The position numbers were made by a program, and so were the translations under genes. From the NCBI GenBank assembly GCA_027064045.1, contig JAMOQK010000048.1, positions 1 through 39,391 on the forward strand: a stretch of DNA of 39,391 nucleotides. Reading direction: 5' to 3'. This document shows, one piece after another, positions 1,679 through 32,551 of the stretch (position 1 is the first letter of the stretch; each line of letters opens with the position of its first letter). The notes beneath the pieces are model-generated. The model searched no databases. It had not been told where the DNA came from and saw nothing but the letters and a program-made list of their open reading frames with translations. Source of the stretch: Sulfurimonas sp. (GTDB taxonomy: Bacteria; Campylobacterota; Campylobacteria; Campylobacterales; Sulfurimonadaceae).

Positions 1679-3634
1679 TTATTTCCTTACCATATTTTGA
1701 ATTTTTTTAACAATACTTGGGTCTTCAAGCGTTGATATATCTTGTGTAATCTCTTCATTTTTTGCTATTGCTCTTAAAATACGACGCATAATTTTACCTG
1801 AGCGAGTTTTTGGAAGTCCAGATACAAATACCATGTCATCACAAATAGCGATATTTCCTATCTCTTTTTTTATAACTTCATTTATCGCTTTAACCTCTTC
1901 AACTTCATCTGCCACACCATCATCAGATTTTAAGACGATATATGCAAAAATTCCTTCACCTTTTATGGCATGTGGCTTTGCGACAACTGCAACTTCTGCT
2001 ACATTTGGATGTTTTTTGATAGATGCTTCAACTTCGGCAGTTCCCATCCTGTGACCACTTACATTTATAACATCATCTGTACGACCTGTTATGGTTATGT
2101 AACCATCTTCATCATAAACGGCACCATCTCCTGTAAAATAAACTGCTTTGCCATCTTTTTTTACATCACCAAAGTAAGATTTTACAAATCTTTCTTCATC
2201 TCCCCAAACACCTCTTATCATAGATGGCCAAGGTTTTGTTACACACATGTAACCTTTCTCACCAACTTCAACTCTTTCTCCAGTTTGTGGGTCTAAAATT
2301 TCTCCCATAATTCCAGGTAAAGATAGAGTTGCACATGCTGGTTTAATAGGTGTAGCACCTGGAAGAGGTGATACAATATGTCCACCAGTTTCAGTTTGCC
2401 AGTAGGTGTCAACTATGGCACATTTAGAAGCTCCAACCTCTTCATAGTACCATTTCCACGCAGGTGGGTCTATCGGCTCACCAACTGTTCCTAGCACTTT
2501 AAGTGAACTTATATCATAATTTGCAGGTTCATGCTCACCCATTTTATGAAGTACACGAATAGCAGTTGGAGCAGTATAAAACTGATTAATTCTATGTTCT
2601 TCAACCATTTTCCAAGGTCTTCCAGCATCAGGGTAAGTTATAACTCCTTCAAACATCACAGTTGTAGCACCCATCGCCAAAGGTCCATAAACTATATATG
2701 TATGTCCTGTTATCCAGCCAACATCAGCAGTACACCAGTAGGTATCGTTTTCTTTCACATCAAAAACCCACTCCATCGTCATTTGCGCCCACAAAATATA
2801 TCCTGCTTGGTTATGTTGAACACCTTTTGGTTTACCTGTACTTCCTGAAGTGTAAAGTAAAAAGAGAGGGTCTTCTGCATCCATAACTTCTGCTTCACAT
2901 TTAGCAGATTTTTCTTTTATAAGTTCATTGTATGAGTAATCTCTTCCTGCTACCCACTCAACATCTTCATTATTTCTCTCAATCACTAAAACTTTTTCAA
3001 CAGGAGATTTTTCATCAATCGCAGCATCAACAACTGGTTTTAGCATATATGGTTTCTCTTTTCTAAAAGCTCCATCAGCAGTTATAACTATTTTTGCATC
3101 TGCATCTTCGATTCTGTCTTTTAAAGCTTCAGCAGAAAAACCACCAAAAACGATAGAATGTATAGCACCGATTCTCGCACATGCCAACATTGCATAAGCA
3201 GCTTCAGGAATCATCGGCATATAGATAACAACACGATCACCTTTTTTTACACCAAAATCCTCTTTTAAAAGGTTTGCAAATTTGTTTACATTATAATAAA
3301 GTTCAAGGTAGGTGATAACCTGTTTATCGCCTCTGTCACCCTCAAAGATAATTGCAGCTTTGTTTTTTCTTTTATCTAAATGTCTGTCGATACATTGAGC
3401 AGAAACATTTAGCTTTCCACCTTCAAACCATTTTACAAATGGAAAGTTTGATTCATCCATAACATTAGTAAACGGTTCAATCCAATCGATTTTCTCTTTA
3501 GCATAACCACCCCAAAAACCTTCATAGTCCTCAGTCGCAAAATCTTGTAAAGCTTGATACTCACACATATTTTTAATTCTTGCATTTTGTGCAAATTTTT
3601 TGTTTGGTTTAAAAACTTCTTTTGTATTTGACAT
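1679..3634 (-). CDS. acs: Acetyl-CoA synthetase (AMP-forming)
   Basis: This 651-aa adenylate-forming enzyme activates acetate to acetyl-AMP and then acetyl-CoA. Visible family motifs are the N-terminal ACS segment [15 protein letters not shown], the phosphate loop [11 protein letters not shown], the acetate-site region [10 protein letters not shown], the hinge [14 protein letters not shown], and the C-terminal [14 protein letters not shown], whose lysine is the one acetylated by Pat-type enzymes in characterised homologues. Length is full. The start ATG at 3634 follows GGAGT at a suitable distance. It is divergent from ppiB and upstream of pyrF on the same strand. One copy of the GGCATGTGG motif falls in the conserved PHAIKG segment. 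Confidence 0.97.
1967..1975 (+). repeat. GGCATGTGG motif copy (in acs)
   Basis: Exact 9-mer preceded by T. On the coding strand it encodes PHA within PHAIKGE, a segment I recall as conserved in Acs proteins generally. This copy may therefore be explained by protein constraint. Confidence 0.6.
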
Positions 3635-4241: not shown

Positions 4242-4259
4242 GTACGGTTAAAACCGTAC
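4242..4259 (+). promoter_or_regulatory. Intergenic hairpin between ppiB and queH
   Basis: GTACGG and CCGTAC flank TTAAAA, giving a perfect six-pair stem with a six-base loop 4 bases after the ppiB stop. An A-rich run and the queH ribosome-binding site follow rather than a T-run. It is more likely an mRNA stabiliser, processing site or attenuator than an intrinsic terminator on this strand. Confidence 0.45.
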
Positions 4260-4270
4260 TTCCAAAAAAA

Positions 4271-4283
4271 AGGAAAAAACATC
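4271..4283 (+). promoter_or_regulatory. queH ribosome-binding site and probable ATC start
   Basis: AGGA at 4271-4274 precedes ATC at 4281 by six bases. Between the last in-frame stop (TAG, 4221-4223) and the conserved LVHICC there is no ATG, GTG or TTG in any frame. The Shine-Dalgarno spacing therefore points to the non-canonical ATC as start. Confidence 0.5.
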
Positions 4284-5363
4284 TTAGTCCATATCTGTTG
4301 CAGTGTTGATTCACACTTTTTCCTACAAAAATTACAAAATGATTTTCCACATGAAAAACTTACAGGTTTTTTTTATGACCCTAACATCCATCCATATTCA
4401 GAATACCAATTAAGACTTTTAGATGTTCAAAGAAGTTGTAAAAAACTCGGCATTGAGCTTATAGAGGGTGAGTACGATTATGAAAACTGGTTAAAAGCAG
4501 TTCGTGGACTTGAAAAAGAGAGGGAAAAAGGTGCAAGATGTGAAGTCTGTTTTGATAAACGATTTTTAGTAACTGCAAACAAAGCCTTAGAACTTGGTGA
4601 GACAAGTTTTACAACCACACTTCTTGTCAGCCCCCTTAAATCACAAAAACAACTTAAAAAAAGTGGTGAAGTTTTTTATGAAAAACACGGAGTTGAGTTT
4701 ATCGCTGTTGATTATAGAGCAGGTGGTGGCACACAAGACCAAAGTCGTGTTACAAAAGAGGAGCAACTTTACAGGCAGGATTATTGTGGATGTATCTTTG
4801 GTTTGACTATGCAAAGAGATGAGCAAAACCGTTTGATGGATGAGATGTTTAGCCCTATTTCAAACCAAATTTTACCAGCTTCCATAGAAGAAAGATTAGA
4901 ACTTTACAGATACCGTATGGAACTTGAAGATAACAATATAAAATATAAAATTATAAAAGAGAAGTTTTTAAATTATAGGCAATTTTCTTTTAAACTTATC
5001 CAAAATAAAAAAGATATTATTCCAGCCTATGCACTCATCTACTCAACTTTGCCAAGAAAAAAAACACAGGGTCGCATAGAATTTAAAGATAAAAATATAC
5101 ACTATCTTAACCGTGATGAGGTAAGGTTTGTTACTTTAGAATATTTTAATCTTATATGTCAAACAAATTACAAAAATATAAAAGAGTTGATATTCAATCC
5201 ACCACTTATTCAAAAAGAGTTAAGTTTTAGGGAAGCTTTGGCATGTGGGAATTACAGTTTAACTCCCATAATTATAGTTGAACAAATCCCACATGCCAAG
5301 CTTAGTATAGAGCTTGATGCAAAAACATATGAAGATGTCAAAGAAAAACTAATCGTTTTATAA
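4281..5363 (+). CDS. queH: Epoxyqueuosine reductase QueH, non-canonical start
   Basis: QueH reduces epoxyqueuosine to queuosine in tRNA using iron-sulfur and metal centres. The track shows only the fragment from 4803. The reading frame is open from 4224 and the conserved protein begins near 4281 with ILVHICCSVDSHFFLQ, giving about 360 aa. Visible metal-ligand motifs are the N-terminal Cys-Cys pair, CEVCFDKR and QDYCGC. The C-terminal 160 residues after YCGC are an extra domain beyond the minimal QueH core. No ATG/GTG/TTG is available, so ATC is the likely start. A recent start-codon mutation or sequence error would also explain this. It carries two inverted copies of the GGCATGTGG motif near its end. 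Confidence 0.85.
   Translation: MLVHICCSVDSHFFLQKLQNDFPHEKLTGFFYDPNIHPYSEYQLRLLDVQRSCKKLGIELIEGEYDYENWLKAVRGLEKEREKGARCEVCFDKRFLVTANKALELGETSFTTTLLVSPLKSQKQLKKSGEVFYEKHGVEFIAVDYRAGGGTQDQSRVTKEEQLYRQDYCGCIFGLTMQRDEQNRLMDEMFSPISNQILPASIEERLELYRYRMELEDNNIKYKIIKEKFLNYRQFSFKLIQNKKDIIPAYALIYSTLPRKKTQGRIEFKDKNIHYLNRDEVRFVTLEYFNLICQTNYKNIKELIFNPPLIQKELSFREALACGNYSLTPIIIVEQIPHAKLSIELDAKTYEDVKEKLIVL
5238..5299 (+). repeat. Inverted pair of GGCATGTGG motifs (end of queH)
   Basis: The left arm TTGGCATGTGGGA (5238-5250) and right arm TCCCACATGCCAA (5287-5299) are perfect 13-base reverse complements separated by 36 bases. Both lie inside queH (LACGN and IPHAK) about 65-125 bases before its stop. The pair could form a hairpin in the mRNA. 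Confidence 0.9.
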
Positions 5364-5375
5364 TCTTTTTTTAGG

Positions 5376-5381
5376 TAAAAT
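5376..5381 (+). promoter_or_regulatory. Possible -10 box before fabZ
   Basis: TTTTTTTAGGTAAAATATCC lies in the 47-base gap before fabZ. TAAAAT after a T-run resembles the Campylobacterota -10 pattern. The evidence is weak. Confidence 0.3.
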
Positions 5382-5410
5382 ATCCAAAATTATTTACAAG
5401 GCTTTTTATT

Positions 5411-5857
5411 ATGACTATGGATGTTATGGAAATTCAAGAGATTATCCCTCATCGTTACCCTTTTTTACTAGTTGACAGGATTACTGAAGTTATCAAAAAC
5501 GAAGGTCTTACAGGCTATAAAAATGTAAGTATCAGTGAAAATGTATTTCAAGGTCATTTCCCAGGTCACCCAATCTACCCAGGCGTTATGATTTTAGAAG
5601 GTATGGCTCAAGCTGGTGGTATTTTAGCATTTCAGAGTATGGATATGACTAAAGCCGAAGCTGCAAATAAAGTTGTTTATTTTATGAGTATCGACAAAGC
5701 AAAATTTCGCGCTCCTGTTAAACCAGGTGATAGACTTGAATATCATATATCAGTTATCAAACACAAAGGTGCTATCTGGGTTTTAAAAGGTGAAGCGTTT
5801 GTTGATGACAAGATGGTGTCAGAAGCTGAATTAAAAGCTATGATTGTTGATAAATAA
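5411..5857 (+). CDS. fabZ: (3R)-hydroxyacyl-ACP dehydratase
   Basis: FabZ dehydrates beta-hydroxyacyl-ACP in the fatty-acid elongation cycle. The 148-aa hotdog-fold protein contains [14 protein letters not shown] and the active-site block [22 protein letters not shown] with the catalytic His and Glu. The ATG at 5411 gives [18 protein letters not shown], the normal family N-terminus. It is directly followed by lpxA after 9 bases. The fabZ-lpxA order is widely conserved and balances fatty-acid flow between phospholipid and lipid A. Confidence 0.96.
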
Positions 5858-5866
5858 GGGTAAGTT

Positions 5867-6655
5867 TTGAGTAGTAAAATCTCCCCACTCGCTATCATTG
5901 AAGATGGTGCTAAAATCGGAAAAGATGTAGAGATAGGGTCATATTGCCTTATCTCTTCACAAACAACTATTGGTGATGGCACTGTTATAGACCAAAATTC
6001 ATCTATATATGGAAAAACGACTATTGGTAAAAATAACCATATATTCTCACATGCCGTAATAGGTTCTATCCCCCAAGATTTAAAGTTTGCAGGTGAAGAT
6101 GTTGAACTTATTATAGGTGATGATAACAAGATAAGAGAATTTACACTTTTTAATCCTGGAACAAAAGGTGGTGGTGGAAAAACTATTATCGGAAGTCATA
6201 ATCTTTTTATGGGTTATGTTCACATTGGACATGATGTTATTATTGGTAATCATTGTATCTTGGCAAATGCAGCAACTTTAGCTGGGCATGTGGAAATGGG
6301 TGATTATGCCGTTATTGGTGGGATGACACCTATCCATCAGTTTGTTCACATTGGGGACTATGCAATGGTTGCTGGAGCTTCAGCCTTGGCACAAGATGTT
6401 CCACCATTTTGTATGGCAGAAGGAAATCGTGCAACACTGAGAGGTTTAAACCTAACAGGACTTAGAAGAAATCTCAAAAGAGATGAAATAGATGAATTGA
6501 AATTAGCTTATAAAGAGTTGTTTGAAGCTGGTAAGCCACTTAAAGATGTAGCAAGTGAACTTATAGAAAATACACAAAATTATCATGTGCATAATCTTTG
6601 TAATTTTATTTTAAAAACAAAACGGGGAATTCCCTATGAGAGGAAAAATATATGA
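5867..6655 (+). CDS. lpxA: UDP-N-acetylglucosamine acyltransferase
   Basis: LpxA transfers a 3-hydroxyacyl chain from ACP to UDP-GlcNAc, the first step of lipid A synthesis. The 262-aa protein shows the left-handed beta-helix hexapeptide pattern ([19 protein letters not shown]) over residues about 8-190. The catalytic histidine region is [24 protein letters not shown]. The helical C-terminus begins [18 protein letters not shown]. The start is TTG at 5867, close behind fabZ. Its stop overlaps the clpX start (ATGA). One exact motif copy lies at LAGHVEMG and a one-mismatch copy at 6047. Confidence 0.96.
6285..6293 (+). repeat. GGCATGTGG motif copy (in lpxA)
   Basis: Exact 9-mer, but preceded by G rather than the usual T. 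It encodes GHV in LAGHVEMGD, a conserved LpxA segment, so it may be protein-constrained. Confidence 0.55.
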
Positions 6656-13774: not shown

Positions 13775-14184
13775 AAAATCTGGTTATTTTAACACAAACC
13801 GACACGACTGTCGGTTTTGTCTCACAAAATGCAGATAAACTTTATGAGATAAAATCTCGTGATACTTTAAAACCTTTTATAAAAGTTTATACTGATTTTA
13901 AAAGTTTCTTGGCATGTGGAAATAGAATCCCACATGCCAAAAAAAACTTTGTTCGCCGTTCAAAAAAAACATCATTTATTGTAAAAAATAGAGCTTTTAG
14001 AGTTGCAAAAATACCTTTTAGTTGGGTTTATTCAACAAGTGCAAATGAATCCAATCAAAAATTTGATAGAACTTTTTGTGAAGATAAAGCTGATATAATT
14101 ATGGAAGATAAAAGAGGATTTAGTGAAGAAAATTCATCAACTCTGTTTAAAATAAACAACAGCAAAGAGGTTAAAATAAGATGA
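13735..14184 (+). CDS. Short Sua5/YciO/YrdC-like protein
   Basis: At 149 aa this is shorter than canonical TsaC/Sua5 proteins (about 190 or more). Segments match the family pattern: [13 protein letters not shown] for the PTDTVYGL strand, KSRDTLKPF for the K-R-x(n)-KP nucleotide and threonine site, and [14 protein letters not shown] for STSAN-x-SG. This suggests binding of ATP or threonyl-type ligands and perhaps tRNA threonylcarbamoyladenosine chemistry, but the short length and altered residues make catalysis uncertain. The ATG lies inside carB (40-base overlap); a later start would cut into the first strand. It holds a perfect inverted motif pair encoding [11 protein letters not shown]. Confidence 0.7.
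13909..13940 (+). repeat. Inverted pair of motifs forming a hairpin
   Basis: TTGGCATGTGG (13909-13919) and CCACATGCCAA (13930-13940) form a perfect 11-base-pair stem with a 10-base loop. A run of A follows on the plus strand, so transcription on the minus strand would see a T-run before the stem rather than after it. The hairpin lies inside the Sua5-like gene. Confidence 0.92.
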
Positions 14185-17404: not shown

Positions 17405-18050
17405 AATTTTATTTTTAGAAGATGATATTCTTTTAGCTGAGACTATTGTTGATTTACTTGAAGATTCTGAATTTATGGTTACTCATGTACCAAATGGGCA
17501 GGAGGCATTAAATCAAACTTTTATACAAAAGTTTGATTTGTATCTATTGGATATAAATGTACCACTTATAGACGGTATTACACTTTTAAAAGAGTTAAGA
17601 GAGTCTGCTGATGATACTCCTGCTATATTTTTAACATCACACAAAGAGAAAGAGATGTTGAAAACTGCTTTTTTAAGTGGTGGTGATGACTATATAACCA
17701 AACCATTTGATAATGATGAACTCATACTAAGGATTGAAGCATTAACAAAAAGAAATAAACAAAACAATGTGGAATGTGTAGGTCTTCTTTGCCATGATGA
17801 AATCCATAAAAGCATACTTTATGATAAAAAAGAGTTAGAATTATCAAAAAAAGAGTATGAATTACTATTGTTGCTAATGACACATGCCAATACAACGGTA
17901 CCAAAAGAGTTGATTTTAGATGAACTTTGGAGTAGCAGTGAAGCAGGAAGTGATGGTGTGGTTCGTGTTTATATAAATCGTATAAAGCAACTCTTACCAG
18001 ATATGACCATAGAAAATATCCGTGCTGTGGGATATAAGCTTGTTTCGTAA
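17388..18050 (+). CDS. OmpR-family response regulator
   Basis: This 220-aa two-component regulator has a receiver domain ([20 protein letters not shown], phospho-acceptor Asp in [14 protein letters not shown], conserved Lys in DDYITKPFD) and a winged-helix DNA-binding domain ([18 protein letters not shown], then [16 protein letters not shown] and [10 protein letters not shown]). The track start at 17340 is an upstream extension over pyrC. TTG at 17388 or GTG at 17394 gives a normal N-terminus. The gene overlaps the pyrC end and the kinase start, so regulator and kinase are translationally coupled. The target genes could be the adjacent exbBD, by position only. Confidence 0.9.
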
Positions 18051-19721: not shown

Positions 19722-19951
19722 TAACCTTTTGGCATAAGTTTAAATCTTGTGCTATTTACTTCAACTACATTCTGCTGAGCTACTTTGGCATGTGGGTTTT
19801 GTTTTATTTGTGTATTAAAACTTTTCTTATCGATCACTTCAACATTGCGAAAAAGTGTAGCAGCTACAAAAAAAAGTATCATAATTACAACTACACTAAC
19901 ATATAAAAGTATATAGTTCCTTATGTGACCTGTTTCAAAAGGGTTATTCAT
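19718..19951 (-). CDS. Small single-pass membrane protein
   Basis: This 77-aa product has a strong membrane helix (YILLYVSVVVIMILFFVAATLF, residues about 13-34) and a short polar tail (VEVNSTRFKLMPKGY) predicted outside. A GGA-containing ribosome-binding site precedes the ATG. It is convergent with exbD and divergent from tpx. No family is recognised. The tail contains the motif-encoded NPHAK. Position beside exbBD might suggest a TonB-like accessory, but it has no proline-rich spacer or TonB C-terminal domain, so that is not claimed. Confidence 0.62.
   Translation of the reverse strand: MNNPFETGHIRNYILLYVSVVVIMILFFVAATLFRNVEVIDKKSFNTQIKQNPHAKVAQQNVVEVNSTRFKLMPKGY
19787..19795 (+). repeat. 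GGCATGTGG motif copy
   Basis: Exact 9-mer preceded by TT and followed by G. On the minus strand it encodes PHA in the tail of the small membrane protein. Confidence 0.85.
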
Positions 19952-24495: not shown

Positions 24496-25232
24496 TGTAT
24501 AAACAACCTCAAATATATTACTTAACTTATGAGAAATTATTGGATGATAATATCTTTAGGCATATGATAGCAGATGAACATAATAGCTACTATTGGTGTG
24601 ATGATTGGAGTGAAGAACTCTATATTGCTCTTGCTCAAAAGGGATTTATATCTACTACTTATGACACAAAAGATGGTTTGGTTTTACTTCCTGAGCTGGA
24701 GTTTGATTATGGGATTTTGGATTTTGATAATCTTCACATATCTAAAAAAGTAAAAAAACTTTTAACTAAAAATGATTATAGATTTAGTATAGATGAGAGA
24801 TTTGATGAGGTGATAGAAAAGTTTGGTGATTTTCACAAAGACAACTGGCTAAAAGGTAGATATGTAGAACTTTTTAAAACGCTTCATTCTAAAAAATATA
24901 ATAATTTCAGAACCATATCAGTAGAGATATGTTCAAATGATGGGGAGTTGATTTGTGGGGAAGTTGGTTATATCATAGGTGAAATTTATACAAGTTTGAG
25001 TGGATTTAGTTCCCATGAAAAAAAGTATAATAACTATGGAAATCTTCAACTCGTTTTGTTGGCAAAATATCTACAAAAAAATGGTTTTGCTTTTTGGAAT
25101 CTAGGTCATCCCCACATGCCATACAAGATAAAACTCGGTGCTAAAGTTTATAAAAGAACTGAGTTTCTACAAAGGTGGAACGAGTTTTGTATTTTACCAA
25201 TTATTAACCTCACTGATATATACTTTCGCTAG
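24495..25232 (+). CDS. Leucyl/phenylalanyl-tRNA-protein transferase-like
   Basis: This 245-aa protein resembles Aat of the N-end rule pathway, which moves Leu or Phe from tRNA to N-terminal Arg or Lys. Matching segments are YYWCDDWSEELYIALAQKGFIST, LDFDNLHISKKVKKLL, FGDFHKDNWLKGRYVELFKTLHSK, SVEICSNDGELICGEVGYIIGEIYTSLSGF, and the C-terminal LGAKVYKRTEFLQRW. The N-terminal GIFPW-type motif is altered, so it may be a divergent acyl or aminoacyl transferase. It is one base overlapped with the lipoprotein upstream. The motif copy at 25112 lies in its conserved-looking GHPHMPYK. Confidence 0.72.
   Translation: MYKQPQIYYLTYEKLLDDNIFRHMIADEHNSYYWCDDWSEELYIALAQKGFISTTYDTKDGLVLLPELEFDYGILDFDNLHISKKVKKLLTKNDYRFSIDERFDEVIEKFGDFHKDNWLKGRYVELFKTLHSKKYNNFRTISVEICSNDGELICGEVGYIIGEIYTSLSGFSSHEKKYNNYGNLQLVLLAKYLQKNGFAFWNLGHPHMPYKIKLGAKVYKRTEFLQRWNEFCILPIINLTDIYFR
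25112..25120 (-). repeat. GGCATGTGG motif copy
   Basis: Exact CCACATGCC on the plus strand, followed by A (so T precedes in motif orientation). It is read in a different frame (HMP) from most other copies, which argues against a single peptide explanation. Confidence 0.85.
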
Positions 25233-27139: not shown

Positions 27140-27544
27140 ATGGATAATAAAATTACAGATATACCTTTGCATGATATAAAACCATTATTGGAGATAAAAG
27201 AGTACTCATTTTATTACCTTTTAGGTGGGAGTATTTTAGCACTTTTATTGGCATGTGGGATTATATTTTTGATATATAGATATGTAAAAAATAGAAATAA
27301 ATTTAATATAAGAAAAGAGAATTTAAAACTTTTGAAATCTATAAATTTAAAAGATACAAAAAAAGCAGCCTATGATATAACCTTTTATGGTGTATCATTT
27401 AAAGATGATAGCCCTAAACATCTTCAAATGTATAATGATTTGGTATCAAGGCTTCAAGATTATAAATATAAGCAAGAAGTTGAACCTATGGATAAAGAGA
27501 CTTTAGAATATATTCAACTTTACAAGGAGATGTGCGATGTTTAG
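27140..27544 (+). CDS. Small membrane protein of the Bat operon (DUF4381-like)
   Basis: The 134-aa product has one membrane helix (YYLLGGSILALLLACGIIFLIYRYV, residues about 22-46) and a cytoplasmic helical tail (DTKKAAYDITFYGVSF, then YKQEVEPMDKETLEYIQLY). The N-terminal DIPLHDIKPLLEIKEYSFYYL precedes the helix as in DUF4381 proteins, which occupy this same place between DUF58 and BatA. Its end overlaps the BatA start by 8 bases. The motif copy encodes LACG inside the membrane helix. Confidence 0.78.
   Translation: MDNKITDIPLHDIKPLLEIKEYSFYYLLGGSILALLLACGIIFLIYRYVKNRNKFNIRKENLKLLKSINLKDTKKAAYDITFYGVSFKDDSPKHLQMYNDLVSRLQDYKYKQEVEPMDKETLEYIQLYKEMCDV
27250..27258 (+). repeat. GGCATGTGG motif copy
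   Basis: TTGGCATGTGGGATT matches the extended consensus fully. It encodes LACG within the membrane helix of the DUF4381-like protein. Confidence 0.9.
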
Positions 27545-28463
27545 TGGAATCTATTTTCAATATCCATATCTTTTAGCTTTAATTATATTGTTTATGATTT
27601 GTGAGAGATTTTGTAAGATGAGATTACCATCTATATATTTTCCACATGCCAAAGAGTTTATGCAACAAGGTATATCAAGCTCAAAACTTTTGTTTTTGTT
27701 GAAATGGATTGGGATAATTATGCTTGTTGTCTCCATAGCTTCACCTGTAAAAGATGAACCATATGAGATTGAACCAAAACATGGGCATGAGATAGCACTC
27801 ATTTTAGATGCTTCACAATCTATGAGTACGAGAGGCTTTGACAGAGCTAATCCAAGTTTGTCAAGATTTGATGTGGTAAAAGAGATAGTTAGTGATTTTA
27901 TATCTCAAAGAAAGCATGATAACATAGGTCTTGTAGTTTTTGGGGCTTACTCTTTTATAGCTTCTCCATTAACATATGATGCAAATATTTTAAACAAAAT
28001 AGTATCTCAACTTTATGTAGGTATGGCTGGAAAATATACTGCTCTTTATGAATCATTGGCTCAGGGTATAAACCTTTTAAAGATGAGTAAATCAAAAAGT
28101 AAAGTGATGATACTTTTAACTGATGGTTATAACACGGCTAGAAATCGATTTCCATTTGATGTTGCTATAGATATGGCAAAAAAAGAGAAAGTGAAAATAT
28201 ATCCTATAGGTATAGGTTCACCAAATGAATATAATCAAAGAGTGTTACTAAAGATTGCTAAAGAAACAGGTGGTGTGGCTTATGGAGCTTCTAGTGCGAG
28301 TGAACTTCAAGAGGTTTATAAGCAGATAGATAAACTTGAAAAAGTTGAGATCAAAAGTGAGACATTTACATATATGAAATATTATTATATGTATCCGTTG
28401 TTTATATCATTTTTTGCACTTATGTTTTATGTATATCTTAGAAATAAAAGGGGTCATAATTGA
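27537..28463 (+). CDS. BatA-type VWA membrane protein
   Basis: The 308-aa protein has two N-terminal membrane segments (YPYLLALIILFMICERF and LLFLLKWIGIIMLVVSIAS), a VWA domain with MIDAS motif LILDASQSMS and LTDGYNT, and a C-terminal membrane helix (MYPLFISFFALMFYVYL). BatA proteins sit in the inner membrane with the VWA domain in the periplasm and have been linked to stress tolerance and envelope maintenance in Bacteroides and Leptospira. One copy of the motif lies between the first two helices (FPHAKEF). Confidence 0.92.
   Translation: MFSGIYFQYPYLLALIILFMICERFCKMRLPSIYFPHAKEFMQQGISSSKLLFLLKWIGIIMLVVSIASPVKDEPYEIEPKHGHEIALILDASQSMSTRGFDRANPSLSRFDVVKEIVSDFISQRKHDNIGLVVFGAYSFIASPLTYDANILNKIVSQLYVGMAGKYTALYESLAQGINLLKMSKSKSKVMILLTDGYNTARNRFPFDVAIDMAKKEKVKIYPIGIGSPNEYNQRVLLKIAKETGGVAYGASSASELQEVYKQIDKLEKVEIKSETFTYMKYYYMYPLFISFFALMFYVYLRNKRGHN
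27642..27650 (-). repeat. GGCATGTGG motif copy
   Basis: TTCCACATGCCAAAG on the plus strand. It encodes FPHAK in the short loop between the first two membrane helices of BatA. Confidence 0.9.
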
Positions 28464-30340
28464 GTTTTTTACATCCTGAATTTTTATATTTTATGTTGGT
28501 GCCTTTGTTTATATTTTTTGGATTACTGCTTACTAAAAAAGAGTCTCAAATGCATTTTTTTAGTGAAGAGGTTATAGCTAAACTTCGTGTTGGCTCAAGT
28601 GGTTTGAGCATGAAAGTTAGAAATATTTTGTTTTTATTTATTGGATTTTTTATGATTGTTGCACTTGCAGAGCCTGTGATAAATAATGGTGTCATAAAAG
28701 TACAAGCAAAAAGTGCTGACATCATGATAGCTTTTGATATATCTGACTCTATGTTAGCAAGGGATGTTTATCCAAACCGTTTAGAATTAGCAAAACAAAA
28801 AGCGATAGAACTTTTGAAATTAGCACCAAACGAGAGGATTGGGGTAGTGGCTTTTGCTAAAAATTCATATCTTGTTTCTCCAATGAGTTTTGACCATGGT
28901 GCGGTAAATTTTTTGCTTCATCAGTTAGATACTACAAATATAACAGAAAAAGGAACAAATTTTCTTTCTATGTTAGAAGTGGTTGACAAGAGTATAAAAA
29001 ATGATAAAAAATATCTTCTTATCATCAGTGATGGTGGGGATAAAGATAGTTTTAAAGATGAGATAGCATTTGCAAAAGAAAAAAATATTACTATCTTTGT
29101 TTTAGGTGTTGGGACAAAAAAAGGTTCACCAATCAAGAAAAAAGATGGTTCGTTTATAAAATATAAAGGAGAAATTATTATCTCAAAATTAAATGATAAC
29201 ATCTCAGAATTAGCAACTGCTACAGGTGGTGTTTATATTCAAAATGTAAAATCTGATAAGGATATAAAAACTATGCTTAAAGAGATGGAGTCTAAAAGCA
29301 AGAAAAAAGAGTTAAAAAGTGAAGAGGTACATAGATATATAGCACTTTTTTATTATCCTCTTGGATTGGCTTTGTTTTTACTACTTATAGCTACAAGTTC
29401 ATTTAGAAAAAGTTCCAATGCTAGTGTGTTGGCTGTTATTTTGTTCTTATTTGTGGTTCCACATGCCAAAGCTGGTGCATTTGACTTTATGAAACTAGAT
29501 GATGCTAAAAAAGCTTATAACTCAGGTGAGTACGAAAAATCTGCAAAACTTTATGAAGAATATGCAAAAAAGAGTGGTAATTCAAAAGCATATTATGATG
29601 AGGGAAATGCATTTTATAAATTAAAGCAATATAATAAGGCTATAAAATCTTATAAAAGTGCAAAATTTCAGGATAAGGTTTTAAAAGCTAAAAAACTTGC
29701 AAATATAGGAAATGCTTATGCAAAACAGTTGAAACAAAAAGACTTAAAACAAGCGATAAAATCTTATGAAGAGTCGTTAAAACTTAAAGAAGATAAAGAT
29801 GTCAGGGAGAATCTTCAAGAGGTTAAAAAATTGCTAAAAAAACAACAGCAAAAATCTAAAAATAACAAAAATAACAAGAAAAAGAAGGATAAAAACAAAG
29901 AGAATCAAAATAAAGAGAATCAAAATAAAGATGGTAAGTCTAAAAAGTCTAATAATAAAGACAATAAAAATAAAGATGCTAAGTCTAAAAAGTCAAAGAA
30001 AAAAGACAATAAAAACAAAGACAGTAAGTCCAAAAAATCTAGTAAAAAGGATGACAAAAATAAAAAAGAGAATAAATCCAGCAAATCTGATAATAACAAA
30101 AAAGATAAAAAATCAGATAAAAATTCTAAAAAATCACAAGGTGATAAAAAGAAAAAACAAGATTTAAAAAAGCTAGATAAAAATCTCCAAAATCAGAAAC
30201 TCTCTTGTTCTAAAGAGAAGATGAGTGAAAAAGAGGAAGCTAAATGGTTAAAACAGCTAAATCTACAAAAAAATACATATCTATATAGATTAAACAATCA
30301 AAAACCTAAAGAGGAGAACAACGATGAAAAACCTTGGTAA
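28460..30340 (+). CDS. BatB/BatC-type fusion: VWA, TPR and Lys-rich tail
   Basis: This 626-aa protein joins functions that are often separate BatB and BatC genes. Residues 1-80 carry two membrane helices. The VWA domain has MIAFDISDSM and LLIISDGGDKD. A helix follows (YIALFYYPLGLALFLLLIATS), and another segment (VLAVILFLFVVPHAKAGAFDF) has a signal-peptide-like look. TPR repeats run from about residue 345 to 455 (AYYDEGNAFYKLKQYNKAIKSY). A lysine/asparagine-rich tail with three 15-residue repeats precedes a conserved end (EEAKWLKQLN). TTG at 28460 overlaps the BatA stop. Confidence 0.9.
   Translation: MSFLHPEFLYFMLVPLFIFFGLLLTKKESQMHFFSEEVIAKLRVGSSGLSMKVRNILFLFIGFFMIVALAEPVINNGVIKVQAKSADIMIAFDISDSMLARDVYPNRLELAKQKAIELLKLAPNERIGVVAFAKNSYLVSPMSFDHGAVNFLLHQLDTTNITEKGTNFLSMLEVVDKSIKNDKKYLLIISDGGDKDSFKDEIAFAKEKNITIFVLGVGTKKGSPIKKKDGSFIKYKGEIIISKLNDNISELATATGGVYIQNVKSDKDIKTMLKEMESKSKKKELKSEEVHRYIALFYYPLGLALFLLLIATSSFRKSSNASVLAVILFLFVVPHAKAGAFDFMKLDDAKKAYNSGEYEKSAKLYEEYAKKSGNSKAYYDEGNAFYKLKQYNKAIKSYKSAKFQDKVLKAKKLANIGNAYAKQLKQKDLKQAIKSYEESLKLKEDKDVRENLQEVKKLLKKQQQKSKNNKNNKKKKDKNKENQNKENQNKDGKSKKSNNKDNKNKDAKSKKSKKKDNKNKDSKSKKSSKKDDKNKKENKSSKSDNNKKDKKSDKNSKKSQGDKKKKQDLKKLDKNLQNQKLSCSKEKMSEKEEAKWLKQLNLQKNTYLYRLNNQKPKEENNDEKPW
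29459..29467 (-). repeat. GGCATGTGG motif copy
   Basis: TTCCACATGCCAAAG on the plus strand, sharing 15 bases with the copy at 27642. It encodes VPHAKAG just after a membrane helix of the BatB/C protein. Confidence 0.9.
29930..30064 (+). repeat. Three tandem 45-bp repeats
   Basis: Units start at 29930, 29975 and 30020 and encode DGKSKKSNNKDNKNK, DAKSKKSKKKDNKNK and DSKSKKSSKKDDKNK. They lie in the disordered, strongly basic tail of the BatB/C protein and could vary in copy number between strains. Confidence 0.85.
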
Positions 30341-31724
30341 AATACTATTAATACTTTTTTTATTTCCACATGCCATATTTGCTTCTGTAAGAGCAACACT
30401 TGATTCAAACTATGTGGAGCTTGGTGATACTGTTACATACTCATTAAATATATCTGGTGAAAATATTAAAAGACCAAATATACAAGCTTTATGTGATAGT
30501 GATGTAATCTCTAGCAGTTCACAAAGAAGCATACAAATCATAAATGGTGATATTAAAAAAAGTTATATTTTAAGTTATAAATTTACACCTCAAAAAAGTT
30601 GTGAGATACCACCACTTAGCGTTGAAGTAGATGGTAAAGTTGAAAAAACAAATAGCGTCAGTTTAAAGATAGTTTCTGGTGTCGTAAAAAAAGATGCTTC
30701 ATTTATGTTGAATTTAACAGCTGATAAAAAAGAAGTATTTGTCGGTGAACCTTTTAAAGTTACACTTTTATTTAAACAAAGGGAGGATGCTCAAGCAGTT
30801 GATTCTCAATTTATAGCACCAAAATTAAAAGGTTTTTGGATAAAAAAAGAGTCAAAACCTGTACGATATAGAGATGGAAGATATGTTATAACGAAGTTAG
30901 TTTATACTATGGCAGCACAAAGAGTAGGGGATTTGACAATTTCAAAAGCTCAAATGAGGATAGCTTCAAGGGCAAACAGTAGAGATAGTTGGGGTGCTTG
31001 GATACCACAAGTAAAATGGAGAAGTTATTTCTCAAACTCTTTAGATATTAAAGTAAAAGAGTTGCCAAATGGTGTAAGTCTTATTGGTGATTTTAGCATA
31101 AAAGCAACTGCTGATAAAGCTCAAATCAACTCAAATGAGGCTTTAAATGTAGAGGTGGAGGTTGATGGAATTGGAAATTTAGAAGATATAAAAAGTTTTA
31201 AACCATATATAGATGGTGTGAGTGTTTTTGATGAAAAAATTGTTATAAAAGACAATAAATTAACACAAAAACTCGCATTTGTCTCAGATAAAGATTTTAT
31301 AGTTCCACCATTTACCCTAAAATATTTTGATACAAAAACAAAGCAGATAAAAACAATACAAACAAAAAGTATTTCTGTGAAAGTTATGGGTGTAAAAGAG
31401 AAAACACCACTAGTTATAAAACATTCAAAAGAGGTTGAAGTAAAACATGAAACTTCAAAAATCTTGCTTTTGGTCTCGTTTTTAGTTGGTCTGGCATGTG
31501 GGATTGTTTTGATGTTGTTAAAATCTATAAAATTTAAGAAAAAAGAAACATCATTAGATATTAAAGATGAAAAACTACTTTTGATGAAACTTTTACCATA
31601 TAAAGATGATGAAGAGGTTAAAAAGATATTTGATATGTTAGAAAATAATATCTACTCAAATACTAAACAAAAGATAGATAAGAAAAATTTAAAAGAAATA
31701 ATTAAAAAATATAATATCTCTTAG
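30324..31724 (+). CDS. BatD-like protein
   Basis: The 466-aa protein has a signal peptide (ILLILFLFPHAIFAS), then a large periplasmic beta-sandwich region starting VRATLDSNYVELGDTVTYSLNISGENIKRPNI, with a second repeat at DKKEVFVGEPFKVTLLFKQ and a third at ADKAQINSNEALNVEVEVDG. A C-terminal membrane helix (ILLLVSFLVGLACGIVLMLLKSI) and a short cytoplasmic tail follow. This is the BatD layout. It overlaps the BatB/C end by 17 bases. Two motif copies lie in it, one at the signal-peptide end and one in the membrane helix. Its stop overlaps tyrA by 4 bases. Confidence 0.9.
   Translation: MKNLGKILLILFLFPHAIFASVRATLDSNYVELGDTVTYSLNISGENIKRPNIQALCDSDVISSSSQRSIQIINGDIKKSYILSYKFTPQKSCEIPPLSVEVDGKVEKTNSVSLKIVSGVVKKDASFMLNLTADKKEVFVGEPFKVTLLFKQREDAQAVDSQFIAPKLKGFWIKKESKPVRYRDGRYVITKLVYTMAAQRVGDLTISKAQMRIASRANSRDSWGAWIPQVKWRSYFSNSLDIKVKELPNGVSLIGDFSIKATADKAQINSNEALNVEVEVDGIGNLEDIKSFKPYIDGVSVFDEKIVIKDNKLTQKLAFVSDKDFIVPPFTLKYFDTKTKQIKTIQTKSISVKVMGVKEKTPLVIKHSKEVEVKHETSKILLLVSFLVGLACGIVLMLLKSIKFKKKETSLDIKDEKLLLMKLLPYKDDEEVKKIFDMLENNIYSNTKQKIDKKNLKEIIKKYNIS
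30366..30374 (-). repeat. GGCATGTGG motif copy
   Basis: TTTCCACATGCCATA on the plus strand. It encodes FPHA at the end of the BatD signal peptide. Confidence 0.9.
31493..31501 (+). repeat. GGCATGTGG motif copy
   Basis: CTGGCATGTGGGATTG fits the extended consensus. It encodes LACGI within the C-terminal membrane helix of BatD, the same peptide as in the DUF4381-like helix. Confidence 0.9.
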
Positions 31725-32551
31725 TCTAAAATATCGTGTAGTTTTTTACCATTTTTCATGTCTTGGTAAACTTTATTCCACTCATCATTTTGGATGCTTT
31801 TTTTGAGGTGGCTCAGTTCGGTTTCAAAAAGTTCTATCGCTTCAAGAATGTTGGATTTGTTTTGTTTAAAAACATCTTCCCACATATCTGGCGAACTTTT
31901 TGCTAATCGACTCATAGAACGAAAACCACCTGCTGCAAGGGCTAAGATATTGTTCTTGTTCTCTTGTTTCATAACTGTATTTGCGAGTGAATATGATATG
32001 GCATGTGGCATGTGGGATATAAAGGCAGCGTGACGGTCATGCTCGTGAGATTTCATAAAATATTTTTTCATATTCAATGATTTAAACATCTTTTTTGCCA
32101 CTTTGCACTGATGTTCACCACTCTCCTCTAAATCACATAAAACAACGCTTTTGCCATCATACAAACCATCTATTGCAGCATGTGGACCAAAATTTTCCGT
32201 TCCTGTCATTGGGTGTGCCGCTATAAAATTTTTTCTGATTTGTTTTGGTACAGATGAGACTATAAGCTCTTTTGTACTTCCTAAATCTATGATAGTTGTA
32301 TCTTCATCAATCTCTGTTAGATTTTTTAAAGCAGAAATAATACCATTTACCGGTATGGCTAAAACAATAATATCGTACTTTTTTACATCTTCAAATTTTA
32401 TGATTTTATCTACTAAATTTAACTTTATCGCATCTTGTTGATGTCCTTTGTTGTGATCACTCCCAACAACTTTATCGATAAAATCAAACTTTTTTAAACT
32501 AAGTGCAAGTGAGCCACCCATAAGTCCAAGACCAACTATCGCTACATTCAT
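31721..32551 (-). CDS. tyrA: Prephenate dehydrogenase
   Basis: TyrA converts prephenate to 4-hydroxyphenylpyruvate for tyrosine synthesis using NAD. The 276-aa protein has the Rossmann start VAIVGLGLMGGSLALSLKK, DLGSTKELIV, the substrate-site block FIAAHPMTGTENFGPHAAIDGLYDGKSVVLC and the C-terminal HMPHAISYSLANTV and FRSMSRLAKSSPDMWEDVF. No chorismate mutase or ACT domain is attached. It is convergent with BatD and divergent from the frameshifted gene. Two overlapping motif copies lie at HMPHAIS, partly conserved in the family. Confidence 0.95.
   Translation of the reverse strand: MNVAIVGLGLMGGSLALSLKKFDFIDKVVGSDHNKGHQQDAIKLNLVDKIIKFEDVKKYDIIVLAIPVNGIISALKNLTEIDEDTTIIDLGSTKELIVSSVPKQIRKNFIAAHPMTGTENFGPHAAIDGLYDGKSVVLCDLEESGEHQCKVAKKMFKSLNMKKYFMKSHEHDRHAAFISHMPHAISYSLANTVMKQENKNNILALAAGGFRSMSRLAKSSPDMWEDVFKQNKSNILEAIELFETELSHLKKSIQNDEWNKVYQDMKNGKKLHDILD
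32000..32015 (+). repeat. Overlapping tandem pair of GGCATGTGG motifs (in tyrA)
   Basis: ATGGCATGTGGCATGTGGGAT contains two exact 9-mers at 32000-32008 and 32007-32015 that share GG. On the minus strand they encode HMPHA in two different frames. A one-mismatch copy lies at 32177-32185. Confidence 0.9.

Follow-up and report, generated by a model that had tools for sequence, protein, structure and literature searches.

The two arms of a perfect inverted pair close to the end of queH in a Sulfurimonas genome probably represent two mutually independent sites of a putative DNA uptake sequence that is abundant, specific to a species group and has the consensus TTTGGCATGTGGRAWW. This reading is based on the observed enrichment of the motif, its sharp consensus and strand balance, its conservation at the DNA level, the separate gain and loss of the two arms, a dialect-like exclusivity among related genomes and the presence of competence genes. 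The window, a stretch of 39,391 nucleotides, belongs to a metagenome assembly of 1.53 Mb (75% complete, hereafter G000), about a quarter of which was read base by base. Arm 1, TTGGCATGTGGGA, lies at 5238-5250 on the forward strand. Arm 2, at 5287-5299, reads TCCCACATGCCAA, its perfect reverse complement, and represents this 13-mer on the opposite strand; a spacer of 36 bases (5251-5286) separates the two. Both arms fall in the frame of queH (4281-5363, forward strand), coding for an epoxyqueuosine reductase (PF02677), and are translated L-A-C-G and I-P-H-A-K, respectively, some 60 bases or more upstream of the stop codon (5361-5363). The next gene, fabZ (5411-5857, forward strand), starts 111 bases past arm 2. 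These coordinates agree with the preliminary description, which had reported a perfect 13-base pair 36 bases apart near the queH stop, with both arms coding and fabZ about 110 bases further on.

The motif core TGGCATGTG is present in 528 copies in the 1.53 Mb of G000, around 60 times the expectation, and is evenly shared between the strands (263 forward and 265 reverse, vs 3 and 1 for a reversed control). A 343-kb sample contained 131 copies where 2.2 were expected from trinucleotide frequencies, and yielded the consensus given above, whose core YGGCATGTGG is sharp and whose flanks are not conserved, conservation stopping abruptly about 3-6 bases or less from the core. The window harbors 15 exact copies of TGGCATGTG, while only about 6 matches would be expected even with one mismatch allowed. 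Besides the queH arms, the window scan located it on the forward strand at 1966-1974, 19786-19794, 27249-27257 (an exact copy of the 13-mer) and 31492-31500, and on the reverse strand at 3178-3186, 17881-17889, 25113-25121, 27643-27651, 29460-29468 and 30367-30375. The core is also found in the CGGCATGTG form at 6048-6056 (reverse strand), as a second, tight inverted pair inside an open reading frame (left arm at 13910-13918, forward; right arm at 13931-13939, reverse), and as two overlapping cores in tandem, TGGCATGTGGCATGTG, at 31999-32014 (forward). Close repeats on the same strand (100 bases apart or less) number 13 in the G000 sample vs about 3.5 expected, among them overlapping copies offset by 7 bases, as at 31999-32014.

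Simple ORF calls place 144 of the 149 sites of the sample in coding sequence, and two of the six frame and orientation classes hold 106 of these 144, the favored frames being xTG-GCA-TGT-GGx (LACG type) and xCA-CAT-GCC-Axx (PHA type). The intergenic DNA of G000 is correspondingly almost motif-free (5 of 149 sites); the intergenic density of the motif in G143, G105, G107 and G018 is several times the coding density. The motif might also be the target of a methyltransferase, a restriction system or an abundant DNA-binding protein unrelated to uptake, and the lineage-specific variants described below could then follow changes of specificity proteins. This has quite a small chance of being correct, as restriction sites are usually avoided rather than enriched some 60-fold, and the sites of regulators are mostly intergenic rather than coding. 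Being short, very abundant, lineage-specific and mostly coding, the motif also resembles Chi, KOPS or other chromosome-organizing sites, and Chi and KOPS motifs likewise differ between lineages. However, sites of these kinds favor the leading strand, and the motif displays no polarity, neither in the overall strand counts of G000 nor with respect to the leading strand (71:78 in G000, 45:42 in G143 and 45:56 in G105, scored against local GC skew in carrier genomes that are not closed); on the latter counts we rejected this candidate. Moreover, tight inverted pairs are enriched in the relatives of G000, unlike what is seen for oriented sites, and we consider a chromosome-organizing function unlikely. 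Over-representation of a short motif, on both strands and without polarity, is among the traits of DNA uptake sequences.

A set of 29 orthologous queH loci served to follow the history of the two sites. Seven of the ten high-copy carriers have arm 1 (G000, G170, G083, G145, G105, G107 and G136), and the core of arm 2 is found in G000, G170, G143, G144 and G018; among these loci an exact copy of both arms is limited to G000 and G170. A further genome (L220) likewise has both arms, and the locus of L221 is of the type found in G170. These two nearest relatives match each arm at 13 of 13 positions, while the spacer, whose conservation does not exceed the gene average, is identical at 26 and 25 of its 36 positions and the gene at about 78%. 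Each arm is therefore held as DNA, which is the outcome looked for in a check proposed by the preliminary description, with arms conserved at this level while the protein varies. Six other high-copy carriers have a single arm left, with 2-9 of 13 positions pairable. Genomes devoid of the motif have different amino acids at the positions of the arms, and the peptides LACG and IPHA are almost confined to motif-bearing lineages. The arms, found only in motif-bearing lineages, are kept or lost separately, and since the length of queH is constant across orthologs, the sites arose by substitution. This pattern of orthologous sequences is that of two sites coming and going separately and not that of a maintained stem. 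Conservation at the DNA level and gain by point mutation, which are typical of uptake sequences, are thus both seen at the queH sites. The two places also approach the motif in G143, G144 and G149, where 11-13 positions could pair if G-U is counted, and the two queH sites may consequently be old. A small mobile or dispersed repeat could also account for hundreds of copies, but its probability appears negligible, since motif conservation ends a few bases from the core and substitution within a gene of constant length already contradicts it.

The preliminary description had proposed an uptake sequence whose inverted pairs may double as terminators. The first part is sustained by the genome-wide and comparative evidence, whereas the second does not hold for the queH pair. 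An RNA hairpin ending or tuning queH transcription, as a terminator or attenuator before fabZ, would be consistent with the good folding of the stretch as RNA (-32.9 kcal/mol, z -6.3) and with the location of tight inverted motif pairs in intergenic gaps of relatives. However, good folding is expected of any such inverted pair. Both arms are translated, the loop of 36 bases is not followed by a T-run after 5299, no terminator match was obtained for the pair, and most of the carriers hold a single arm with few pairable positions. The spacer also exceeds the 21 nt or less at which inverted pairs are treated as terminators in Neisseria (PMC2397512). In addition, a conserved promoter-like TAAAAT for fabZ follows the pair. 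On the T-tract, terminator-match and arm-pairing evidence we rejected a terminator or RNA structure at this place, and a role of the pair in queH transcription is very improbable.

Pairing at the queH spacing is at chance level in G000, where the genome count gave 3 convergent pairs with 31-60 bases between the 8-base cores vs about 2.5 expected (expectations for pairs being derived from motif densities in the sampled stretches). That the two queH sites face in opposite directions thus looks incidental; the pair itself is ordinary within the motif system, and it is this system that is novel. Tight pairs (spacer 0-30), to which the queH pair does not belong, are weakly enriched in G000 (6 convergent and 7 divergent vs about 2.6 expected each) and strongly in its relatives, with 57 convergent and 59 divergent pairs in G107, 44 and 60 in G143, 33 and 28 in G105, and 45 and 19 in G083, for about 4-10 expected. 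Such an enrichment is also known from genomes with uptake sequences (PMC3630211). Many of the tight pairs in relatives are intergenic and, by analogy with Neisseria, may plausibly act as terminators. One of them lies between a peptidylprolyl isomerase gene and queH (L039 1422-1448, L040, L043, L034, L037, L044 and L057), and the ATG of the pair in this gap is in frame upstream of queH in L233 and L236. At around 4242-4259, G000 has a palindrome-like GTACGGTTAAAACCGTAC instead.

In a survey of 200 genomes of the Sulfurimonadaceae, eight other members of the genus harbor 480-1269 copies of the core, and a genome from another, sister genus (G018) has 666. A few genomes are intermediate, with 48-197 copies, and most have around 5-25. 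The carriers are paraphyletic in a queH tree and the intermediate genomes mostly adjoin them, which suggests an old presence of the motif followed by repeated loss and decay, several forks of this one-gene tree being open. The end of the motif varies among carriers: GG(G/A) in G000, GGAA in G143, G107, G105 and G083, and GAA in G018. A search for a replacement motif in non-carriers revealed a second type, TACATGTAA, in G117 and G053. It is present at 400-2726 copies in several genomes of the same genus and in genera g2, g4, g5 and g16, and always low where TGGCATGTG is high. The genomes with this type include G117, G053, G138, G151 and G064, and its strands are balanced in the samples. In G016, the first 20 sites listed are all on the plus strand; this apparent polarity is most likely a listing artefact, because 20 such sites in a stretch of 85 kb agree with the density of this strand alone and the samples of both G117 and G053 are balanced. 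A third class, CTGCGT(TT/GA)R, is seen at named loci as the GCTGCGTTTR and CTGCGTGAG types, and CTGCGTKWR reaches 400-1525 copies in a dozen genomes of the genus with low counts of the two other motifs. Near queH, these two types occur at 0.5-1.2 per kb (L242, L251, L260, L227, L237, L274 and L292; L273, L238 and L286). L273 corresponds to the cultured S. indica NW8N, in which the CTGCGTGAG type is dense near queH.

None of the genomes examined has high counts of two motif types. For example, the counts of TGGCATGTG, TACATGTAA and CTGCGTKWR are 1107, 12 and 58 in G107, 15, 1029 and 84 in G117, and 7, 25 and 1525 in G141. The variants are therefore lineage-specific with one dominant type per genome, as is the case for uptake sequences. 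Some genomes are low in all three motifs and may have further types or none. A looser type, CATGTGGAA, preceded by a variable base, was observed at 0.34 per kb in samples of G169 (L086-L089 and L176), and is either a dialect of its own or one in decay. As the CATGT and CTGCGT classes have no core in common, a single receptor lineage may not explain all types.

Among the genes for natural transformation expected in a host of uptake sequences, G000 has those for ComEC, three prepilins in a row adjoining priA, and an operon coding for PilO-like, secretin, AAA, GspE (MshEN) and GspF proteins. ComEC also exists in genomes without the TGGCATGTG motif. In the same phylum, Campylobacter uses a Cts/type IV pilus-like competence system together with ComEC, whose secretin, GspE, GspF, PilO-like protein and prepilins resemble those of the G000 operons. 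Campylobacter is not known to have an uptake sequence, and its self-preference reportedly rests on DNA methylation. As for a carrier-specific receptor, none was found among the prepilins, the secretion operon and the pseudopilin considered. The prepilins by comEC and priA do not distinguish carriers from non-carriers, being present in both. All high-copy carriers at least 90% complete share a type II secretion operon (L180 of G083 and its orthologs), which a search did not find in G000 and G170 and which also occurs in some non-carriers. Of 30 genomes, only 7 have the Cts-like pseudopilin of G018.

The known systems with comparable properties are DNA uptake sequences, and by analogy with them we infer binding of the motif, its role in promoting uptake and the kind of protein that would bind it. 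Free DNA carrying the motif would be recognized by a surface receptor of the transformation machinery, most probably a minor pilin, and would then enter through the secretin and ComEC. DNA of the own group would thereby be preferentially taken up and recombined, and recombination of motif-bearing alleles would keep the sites and slowly add copies, even at a cost in amino acids, as may be the case for LACG and IPHAK in queH.

The Neisseriaceae DUS, read by the receptor ComP, similarly consists of a 10-12 base motif present in hundreds to thousands of copies on both strands, many of them intragenic, with lineage dialects sharing an inner core and with intergenic inverted pairs (PMC3630211, PMC2397512). 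The sequences are nevertheless unrelated and belong to different phyla, with a CTG core in the DUS and GGCATGTGG with CATGT here; moreover, the second class of the Sulfurimonadaceae (CTGCGT) has no core in common with the first, and the system presented here is known from sequence. The Pasteurellaceae USS likewise has a 9-base core, a high copy number and inverted pairs, and its receptor is only predicted (PMC12616744), but its motifs, AAGTGCGGT and ACAAGCGGT, are again unrelated. According to a 2025 paper, these two families are still the only ones known to have uptake sequences. We found no paper joining the term DNA uptake sequence with Sulfurimonas, nor uptake or transformation data for this genus, in a literature search covering sources other than subscription literature and preprints, and a text search for the motif letters gave none on Sulfurimonas or uptake sequences among the matches listed. 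It appears reasonably likely that uptake sequences evolved in the Sulfurimonadaceae separately from those of Neisseriaceae and Pasteurellaceae, that a single genus has at least three types excluding one another (GGCATGTGG, TACATGTAA and CTGCGT(TT/GA)R), and that gene exchange in these free-living chemolithotrophs is divided along motif types. If so, this would be the first such tag in Campylobacterota and a third, unrelated case, in another phylum and in environmental bacteria with several types in a single genus, implying that sequence-tagged sex arises repeatedly. The gain, decay and switch of motifs would then provide natural experiments on the way a tag spreads and on the identity of the pilin reading it. 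As at least one cultured species of the set, S. indica NW8N, carries the CTGCGTGAG type at high density near queH, a test is feasible in this species.

The QueH fragment used matched Pfam and gave no match in NCBIfam. From comparison of start codons, queH apparently begins with ATC (window 4270-4283, aaggaaaaaacATCTTAGTC), the first in-frame ATG, GTG or TTG not occurring before 4803. Among about 92 distinct queH loci of the Sulfurimonas group, the start reads ATC in 23, ATT in 24, ATA in 2, ATG in 34 and TTG in 9, and a Shine-Dalgarno core precedes 47 of the 49 AUU, AUC or AUA starts vs 9 of the 34 ATG starts. This looks like a conserved non-AUG initiation of the infC type. Past the queH stop, the region 5370-5410 (GGTAAAATA, CAAAATTAT and AAGGC, in this order) is conserved across most relatives and has the appearance of a separate fabZ promoter and leader, of which TAAAAT at 5376-5381 (forward strand), conserved in most orthologous loci of 29 genomes, is the likely -10 element.
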